DNA of 64,000 bases from an uncultured Eubacteriales bacterium. Lineage in GTDB: Bacteria > Bacillota > Clostridia > Lachnospirales > Lachnospiraceae. Within the stretch, counting starts at the first letter, position 1. Every line of letters starts with the position of its first letter. Shown here in pieces: positions 42,578-44,143 of the stretch. The position numbers and the translations under genes were made by a program. The DNA lies in NCBI GenBank assembly GCA_900319795.1, contig ONPU01000008.1, positions 1 to 64,000 on the forward strand, read 5' to 3'. The notes below the pieces were generated by a model that was not told the origin of the DNA, made no database searches, and saw only the letters and a program-made list of their open reading frames with translations.

Positions 42578-42601
42578 TGATCTTCTCCTTGTCGTTTGAA
42601 G

Positions 42602-42666
42602 TGCACCACAGGTGCCTGACCCCTCTGGTGCATTTTGCACCAGAGGGGTCAGGCACCTGTGGTGCA
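42602..42666. repeat. 65-bp perfect palindrome made of two inverted family A units
   Basis: The unit at 42602-42632 and its exact reverse complement at 42636-42666 are joined by TTT. Each unit is itself an imperfect palindrome, so the DNA could form either one long hairpin or two short ones. It lies between the HPr-dehydrogenase stop and the phosphatase ribosome binding site. Confidence 0.9.
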
Positions 42667-42673
42667 CGTTAAG

Positions 42674-43975
42674 TCAGACTCCGCACTCAGCCTCTCCCAG
42701 CGAGCGCCCCTCATTGAAGTTGCGGGCGTTCTCCAGCGTCTGGGCCGCGATGGCCTGCAGCGCCTCGCGAGTGAAGAAGGCCTGGTGGGATGTCAGGACC
42801 ACGTTCGGGAACATCATGAGTCTCGCCGTGATGTCGTGATGCAGGTAGTCGTCGGAACGGTCCATATAGACGTTCTTGTCTTCGCCTTCGTAGACATCGA
42901 GCGCCACGGCGTGGAACTTGCCTTCCTTCAGCGCGTCGATGAGAGCCTCCGTGTCAATCAGGCCGCCGCGGGCCGTATTGACGAGCATGGCCGAATCCTT
43001 CATGAGGTCGATCGCTCTTTTGTCGATCAGATGGTAGGTCCCGTACTCGCCTTGGATGAGCGGCGCGTGAAGGGAGATCAGATCGGCTCTTTCAAAGAGT
43101 TCGTCTTTGTCGACATAGGTCAAAAGCCCCTCTTCTTCCAGAGACTTGTTCGGGAATGCGTCCCAGGCAATGACGGTCATGCCGAAGCCCTTGCAGATTC
43201 TGGCCATGCACTGGCCGATCTTTCCGGTTCCGACGATTCCCGCGACCTTGTTGTGAAGGTCGACGCCCAGAAGGCCGCTTAAAGCGAAGTTGTTGTCACG
43301 GACCTTATTGACCGCCTTGTGCAGACGGCGGTTCGCTTCCATCAGAATCGCGATCGCGTGCTCCGCCACCGCGTAAGGAGAATAAGCCGGCACGCGGGCC
43401 ACTTTGATTCCGCACTCCTTGGCCGCCTGCAGGTCCACGTTGTTGAAGCCCGCGCAGCGGAGGAGAATCAGTTTGACTCCGCAGTCCTTCAGGATTTCCA
43501 CCGCCTCCCTCGGGCACTCGTCATTGACGAAAATGCAGACCGCTTCATATCCCGCAGCCAGGTTGGCCGTTTCGGGCGTCAGGCGGCAGCGGAAATATTT
43601 GATGTCGCAATTGTATGTTCCCTCGCCGCGGTCCTTGGCCAGTTCGCTGAAGAACATGCGGTCATAGTCCTTCGTCCCGAAAAACGCGATTTTCATGGGC
43701 GCTTCGTTCCGGCGGCTCTTCATTTTCTCATCGAGAATGGCCAGCACCTCATCGAGAGCCGCGTCCTCGTCTCCGCCGTCCGCGGTGATTTCCAGAATCG
43801 AGCCGTCTGTGGCATGCAGTCCGAGGAGCTGCAGCACATCGCTGCCGTTGGCGGTCTTCTCGCCGCAGCGGATCGTGATCTGGGATGTCAGTCTCACACA
43901 GGTCTGAGCCAGAAATGCCGCCGGGCGGGCGTGCATTCCGAGCGGGTTTCTCACTTCGTAACGAATTGTTTTCAC
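42674..43975 (-). CDS. HPr-domain fused to D-lactate dehydrogenase-type 2-hydroxyacid dehydrogenase
   Basis: 433 residues. Residues 1-88 are an HPr-like phosphocarrier domain with NPLGMHARPAAFLAQ, His15 at the PTS phosphorylation position, and Ser45 in NGSDVLQLLGL at the place of the HPr kinase Ser46. Residues ~94-433 form a D-isomer 2-hydroxyacid dehydrogenase beginning MKIAFFGTKDYD. It has the NAD motif GIVGTGKIG, RCAGFNNVDL (catalytic Arg region), the Glu region after NTARGG, and the catalytic His in SHQAFFT, as in D-lactate dehydrogenases. A GTG start follows AGGAGG at 8 bases. The internal ATG at 43696 has only a weak GGAAC-like site, so the fused form is favoured. PTS control of pyruvate reduction is inference. 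Confidence 0.92.
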   Translation of the reverse strand: MKTIRYEVRNPLGMHARPAAFLAQTCVRLTSQITIRCGEKTANGSDVLQLLGLHATDGSILEITADGGDEDAALDEVLAILDEKMKSRRNEAPMKIAFFGTKDYDRMFFSELAKDRGEGTYNCDIKYFRCRLTPETANLAAGYEAVCIFVNDECPREAVEILKDCGVKLILLRCAGFNNVDLQAAKECGIKVARVPAYSPYAVAEHAIAILMEANRRLHKAVNKVRDNNFALSGLLGVDLHNKVAGIVGTGKIGQCMARICKGFGMTVIAWDAFPNKSLEEEGLLTYVDKDELFERADLISLHAPLIQGEYGTYHLIDKRAIDLMKDSAMLVNTARGGLIDTEALIDALKEGKFHAVALDVYEGEDKNVYMDRSDDYLHHDITARLMMFPNVVLTSHQAFFTREALQAIAAQTLENARNFNEGRSLGEAECGV

Positions 43976-44143
43976 AGCTGTACCTCCTGAAAAATATAAT
44001 AAAATGCCTCCTTTTCATCCTCTGCGGCGTCCGGCATTAACTTTAATCCATTTCCCATAATAACACAAACCGGCCGTTTCGTAAGAGCAAAATAGACATG
44101 GCATTTTTCGAAACCGTACGGTATCATAGATATCAGGGTTTTT

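Follow-up and report, generated by a model that had tools for sequence, protein, structure and literature searches.

The matching of lactate overflow to sugar uptake is usually ascribed to metabolite allostery and transcription. On the uptake side, Enzyme I of the PTS phosphorylates HPr from PEP in a reversible reaction that releases pyruvate. On the fermentation side, known D-lactate dehydrogenases (D-LDHs) are tuned by pyruvate cooperativity and, in some cases, by FBP and metals, as described in PMC4230899. The allosteric fermentative D-LDHs of Fusobacterium nucleatum (5z21), E. coli (LdhA, 5z1z), and Pseudomonas aeruginosa (5z20) do without an HPr domain.

HPr has been described in several other settings. 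Multi-domain PTS proteins of the FPr/FruB, MTP, and DhaM types also hold HPr within a larger protein, where its partners are PTS phosphotransfer domains (IIA, EI), according to PMC2405797; in the fusion reported here, by contrast, the partner is an oxidoreductase of central metabolism. Free E. coli HPr binds and regulates PykF, PfkB, NagB, and Adk (PMC8167557), and so is likewise a regulator by contact; however, it acts in trans on separate proteins, whereas the fusion is covalent and placed on a lactate dehydrogenase. Type I SerA enzymes with ASB and ACT domains, as described in PMC6303947 (where "HPr" stands for hydroxypyruvate reductase), belong to the same dehydrogenase superfamily and also carry added regulatory domains, but these are C-terminal and bind small molecules, while the extra domain of the fusion is an N-terminal phospho-acceptor. 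No description of an HPr and D-LDH architecture was found in the literature searched, with most subscription journals outside it; both families are known, and their combination appears to be undescribed.

The window, which is the whole 64,000-nucleotide stretch analyzed from an uncultured Eubacteriales bacterium (Lachnospiraceae), carries on its minus strand a single ORF at 42674–43975 that begins with GTG, includes its stop codon, and encodes 433 amino acids free of internal stops. A Shine-Dalgarno sequence, AGGAGGT (43982–43988, minus strand), lies 6 bases 5' of the GTG. The HPr domain covers residues 1–84 (43724–43975); Pfam PTS-HPr (PF00381) matched residues 4–81 with an E value of 4e-21 and 75.2 bits (cut-off 23), and TIGR01003 scored 59.4 bits against a cut-off of 47.9. 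The D-LDH part covers residues 94–433 (42677–43696), with 2-Hacid_dh at 111–426 and 2-Hacid_dh_C at 209–399. Between the Pfam domains is a linker of residues 85–93 (43697–43723), and the predicted structure had lower confidence at residues 81–90 (mean pLDDT 76). An HPr domain and a complete fermentative-type D-LDH are truly fused in one frame. The N-terminal part was assigned to HPr by sequence profiles, because dehydrogenase matches filled both structural match lists (Foldseek and VIA-align) obtained for the whole fusion.

We recovered 55 fused sequences, consisting of the window, 13 same-genus genomes, and 41 named public loci; 53 of them are distinct, since two pairs were the same contig reached twice. 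The genome set comprised 61 genomes (the window's own, 36 of the same genus, and 24 of the same order). The full fusion was present in the window genome and in 13 of the 36 same-genus genomes, with contig-edge fragments in G028 and G033, and in none of the 24 same-order genomes, seven of which had an unfused relative at 46–53% identity. A scan of named genome contigs kept at least 80 loci, among them the 41 with the fusion, and 37 loci among the matches listed align only from residue 70 or later and are unfused, their upstream frames having been viewed over the last 40 residues. Two contig-edge fragments (L072 and L075) were left out of the 55, while L070, with 401 amino acids and an internal gap, was counted as fused. 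Named fused records include Kandleria vitulina DSM 20405 (L071), Eggerthia catenaformis DSM 20559 (L043), Faecalibacillus faecis (L046), and Eubacterium pyruvativorans (L066); the remainder are mostly gut and rumen MAGs, with taxon labels as given in the records. Each of the 42 sequences of alignment A2, which comprises the window and the 41 loci, matched PF00381 and both dehydrogenase families. The fusion occurred in 16 of 43 genomes of the K. vitulina family and in 3 of 398 genomes, the window genome included, when the phylum was drawn evenly. G251 and G330 from this draw are rated 100% and 99% complete and show the same architecture, and the ORF and profile match of G251 were confirmed. The finding of 55 fused sequences across many records rules out an assembly chimera or frameshift as the source of the fusion.

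An all-against-all comparison of the ORFs that flank the fusion at 42 loci (the window and 41 public ones) yielded only groups of at most 6 loci, so that a conserved operon or PTS neighbor was rejected. CcpA-type cre sites, searched by their consensus, showed no clear excess over shuffles in the 42 upstream stretches (mean best mismatch 2.38 versus 2.64), with one mismatch in six of the stretches.

A tree was built from 84 dehydrogenase parts, of which 54 were fused and 30 unfused; all fused rows formed one side of a branch with an SH-aLRT of 100, indicating one origin of the fusion in the dehydrogenase tree. Fused L039 was left out of the trees because the motif cut missed it, and seven of the 37 unfused loci are outside the tree, three (L076, L077, L107) with a stop inside the match range and four (L089, L093, L098, L101) not chosen. 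A smaller HPr tree, based on few columns, also split fused from free-standing HPr with a support of 94. The dN/dS values were 0.04–0.23 for the HPr part (20 of 22 pairs computable) and 0–0.11 for the dehydrogenase part (21 of 22), rough estimates with several dS above 1. By these estimates the HPr part evolves faster than the dehydrogenase part yet is clearly constrained, and its values indicate purifying selection on the HPr domain.

The start of translation was evaluated because an in-frame ATG (Met94, at 43696) opens the dehydrogenase part, and many unfused relatives begin at the equivalent residue. Met94 is Met in only 3 of the 53 distinct fused sequences, and the eight same-genus orthologues printed, out of 13, have TTA, CTT, CTC, ATC, or CTG at this position. 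The start codon at HPr, in contrast, has the same position as that of the window fusion in 13/13 same-genus orthologues and lies 14 codons 5' of His15 in the 41 named fused loci, with an SD-like sequence, judged by eye, at the HPr start of fused loci. Translation from 43696 as the main product is largely ruled out by the rarity of Met94 and the conserved start position at HPr, and the start-site evidence points to the fused form as the product. The first-pass annotation had proposed both domains in a single frame, which the stop-free ORF of 433 amino acids and the Pfam domains confirm. Among the findings that it had named as speaking against its proposal were a main start at 43696 and loss of HPr in close orthologues; the internal start shows no conservation, and close orthologues retain the HPr part.

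The dehydrogenase part is most similar to D-LDHs, which make up most of the nearest solved chains (Fusobacterium, E. coli, Salmonella, and Pseudomonas among them), and 5z21, 5z1z, 4cuk, and 5z20 were near the top of the match lists. The NAD-binding GxGxxG motif is present as GTGKIG at 249–254, and the acidic residue that follows, Asp272, was kept in 53/53 fused sequences. The catalytic Arg, Glu, and His of the family correspond to Arg336 (codon 42968–42970; 53/53), Glu365 (42881–42883; 51/53, Gln in the other two), and His397 (42785–42787; 52/53, one gap). No curated NCBI D-LDH model reached its cut-off: VanH-general, the top-scoring NCBIfam model, stayed far below at 219 bits versus 540, followed by NF009127 (194 versus 579) and NF006374 (183 versus 356). 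This part is best described as a general D-LDH type, for which we claim no subfamily; D-lactate chemistry is strongly suggested. The two sequences with Gln at the catalytic Glu are L066 6001–7314 (E. pyruvativorans) and L056 6001–7302 (a MAG).

Compared with the allosteric D-LDHs named above, the fused enzymes carry an insertion near residues 116–120, and most have a second at 308–310. The former was missing from 28 of the 30 unfused rows, and the latter was seen in none of the unfused rows printed and was missing in some fused rows, such as L060 and L068. L073 (6022–7023), the nearest unfused relative among the matches listed, has a GEG-type insert at 116–120 but lacks HPr, which shows that this insert also occurs outside the fusion; no adjoining HPr gene was found within the stretch read.

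The active center of the HPr domain was well conserved: Gly13, His15, Ala16, and Arg17 were kept in 53/53 distinct fused sequences and Pro18 in 51/53. The codons of His15, the PTS phosphorylation site, and of Arg17, the active-center arginine, are at 43931–43933 and 43925–43927. Firmicutes HPr (PtsH), represented by 3le1, shares sequence family, His15, Arg17, and length with the fused domain, but the latter is part of an enzyme and has Ser46 replaced, mostly by Asn. In a gapless alignment over residues 1–84, Ser46 of 3le1 pairs with Asp46 of the window fusion (43838–43840), and the serine of the latter is residue 45. Position 46 was Asn in 45, Asp in 5, Arg in 2, and Ser in 1 of the 53 sequences, and position 45 was Ser in only 5. 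The first-pass annotation was correct about the His15 site, the His15/Arg17 center being invariant, and wrong about a "Ser46-type" site; its suggestion of serine phosphorylation by HPr kinase finds no support in the residues at position 46. The 3le1 alignment and the single Ser46 rule out Ser46 control of the fusion, and with Asp here and Ser in only 1/53, control by HPr kinase is unlikely. An intact His15 center without Ser46 points to Enzyme I rather than HPr kinase. Positions 47, 48, and 51, the usual partner-binding positions of HPr, are mostly hydrophobic in the fused HPr parts.

The sole Ser46 among the 53 fused sequences (motif GKSIL) is in L061 (679–1986), from a MAG labelled Selenomonadaceae; a search of its genome (G067) found no HPr kinase, and the same search missed the B. 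subtilis control. Free-standing HPr proteins were read in the window genome, where four of the five HPr matches were listed and read, and in seven other fusion genomes. Six of the 12 have Ser46, in the classical KSIMGV motif in K. vitulina, E. catenaformis, and F. faecis, so Ser46 is also lost in some free-standing HPr proteins, although the fusion lacks it almost universally. A free-standing HPr in the window genome (L113, G000:C2:15700-17000) has Lys in place of Arg17 together with a Ser46-type site (GLHLKPA, AKSVL) and is perhaps a Crh-like regulator. F. faecis has a second HPr-like protein (L132, G063:C18:17200-18200) in which Tyr replaces His15 and Ser replaces Arg17 (GLYASPA) but a Ser46 site is present, and it resembles regulators that respond solely to HPr kinase.

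Enzyme I was detected over cut-off in the window genome (G000:C15:5253-6848), in 12 of the 15 same-genus genomes carrying the fusion or a fragment, and in 9/9 further fusion genomes; none was over cut-off in G004 (fusion) or G028 (contig-edge fragment), and it was partial in G017, all of these being draft genomes. HPr kinase is encoded in the window genome and in five of nine other fusion genomes; in the remaining four it was not seen, an absence that is unsafe because the same search missed the kinase that B. subtilis, the control, is known to have. The window genome also gave two EIIC matches. Two of eight fusion genomes, those of K. vitulina and E. pyruvativorans, gave an L-LDH match (TIGR01771); the other six, which include the window genome and E. 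catenaformis, gave none. None of the eight had another dehydrogenase match above 41% identity to the fusion, so the fusion is the only candidate found for fermentative lactate formation in several genomes, some of whose assemblies are possibly incomplete (that of the window is rated 82%), and it can be the presumptive lactate enzyme of cells in which no L-LDH was found. G094, a fusion genome of the K. vitulina family, also has an unfused relative at 49%. In the sheep rumen, a Sharpea azabuensis D-LDH gene was expressed 12-fold higher in low-methane animals, together with PTS genes, according to PMC5069950.

Based on these data, we tentatively read the fusion as a fermentative D-LDH with a built-in PTS phospho-acceptor that would gate pyruvate reduction by the PEP:pyruvate ratio, a reading for which belief and doubt are almost in balance. 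A pyruvate-consuming dehydrogenase that carries the phospho-acceptor of Enzyme I could read this ratio directly. Enzyme I is likely to phosphorylate the fusion, at His15 of the HPr domain and with PEP as the donor, and since the transfer is reversible, the phosphorylation state of the domain would track the ratio. Sugar uptake through the PTS would drain PEP and raise pyruvate, so that the HPr domain would for the most part lack phosphate and the dehydrogenase, which uses pyruvate as its substrate, would be on. When uptake stops, phosphorylated His15 would build up and pyruvate reduction would be damped. The gating and its direction are a proposal, and the choice of the unphosphorylated form as the active state is a guess from physiology. 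Several observations count against this scheme. Enzyme I was unseen in G004 and G028 and partial in G017. E. pyruvativorans, which is not known to use sugars, has retained the fusion, in which Gln replaces the catalytic Glu, and this argues against a simple sugar sensor, as does the lack of conserved neighbors among the loci compared. In addition, allostery is already present in related D-LDHs that lack HPr (PMC4230899), so regulation as such does not require an HPr domain.

The main rival to gating is that the HPr domain brings pyruvate-releasing Enzyme I beside the pyruvate-consuming dehydrogenase, which would remove pyruvate locally and regenerate NAD while sugar is taken up, with the complex cycling through phosphorylation and working without a switch. 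No allosteric contact of the two domains is required, Enzyme I was present in the nine further fusion genomes, His15 and Arg17 are kept, and the conversion of PEP to pyruvate by Enzyme I is established chemistry. However, HPr-Enzyme I contacts are short-lived, and the free HPr pool would compete for them; we consider this docking unlikely. It is also conceivable that the fused HPr is an additional phosphocarrier that relays phosphate from Enzyme I to EIIA proteins and leaves the dehydrogenase unaffected. Its complete His15/Arg17 center would fit phosphotransfer, and multi-domain phosphotransfer proteins with HPr are well known (PMC2405797). Against this, the window genome and the seven other fusion genomes looked at have free-standing HPr genes, and there would have to be a reason why the fusion arose once and has persisted with one dehydrogenase clade, making this relay improbable.

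The two remaining explanations stand much lower. That HPr kinase sets activity by serine phosphorylation, as had been proposed, could draw on the kinase genes of the window genome and the five other fusion genomes and on Ser45, which adjoins the usual site, but the serine counts at positions 46 and 45 and, less certainly given the missed control, the four genomes in which the kinase was unseen make it very improbable. It is hardly credible that the HPr part is a passenger or that the enzyme is made mainly from 43696: the in-frame ATG and the start of many unfused relatives there would favor this, but they are set against the scarcity of Met94, the replacement codons in the orthologues printed, the SD-like sequence at the HPr start, and the purifying selection on the HPr part.

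The gating and docking readings converge on a broader claim, which we find equally easy to believe and to doubt: as a central fermentation enzyme with a covalent PTS phospho-sensor, the fusion would be the first of its kind, with lactate set in one step by PEP:pyruvate through Enzyme I and His15, or with Enzyme I handing pyruvate over. In some gut species no other lactate dehydrogenase was found. The fusion joins the phosphate relay of sugar import to the enzyme that disposes of by-product pyruvate and is kept in several gut and rumen Bacillota lineages. This joining suggests direct control, or supply, of lactate production by sugar import. D-lactate accumulation has been linked to rumen acidosis. 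As the family includes cultured species, the link between sugar and lactate is testable in vitro and in culture.

Two minor observations were made on neighboring or related sequences. Genome G051, of the same order, has a CAT_RBD-PRD-PRD antiterminator and an HPr domain in one stop-free frame (L144, 360–1547, plus strand); since there is an ATG for the HPr part itself, this may be either another HPr fusion or mere adjacency. At the end of the fusion gene, window positions 42596–42672 form a 37-nt near-perfect inverted repeat (95%) with a 3-nt loop. Its core, GGTGCCTGACCCC, occurs in 30 copies in the window genome compared with 0 for the reversed control, and eight more related repeat matches are elsewhere in the window. 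The repeat is therefore a dispersed palindromic repeat, perhaps of the REP or MITE kind.
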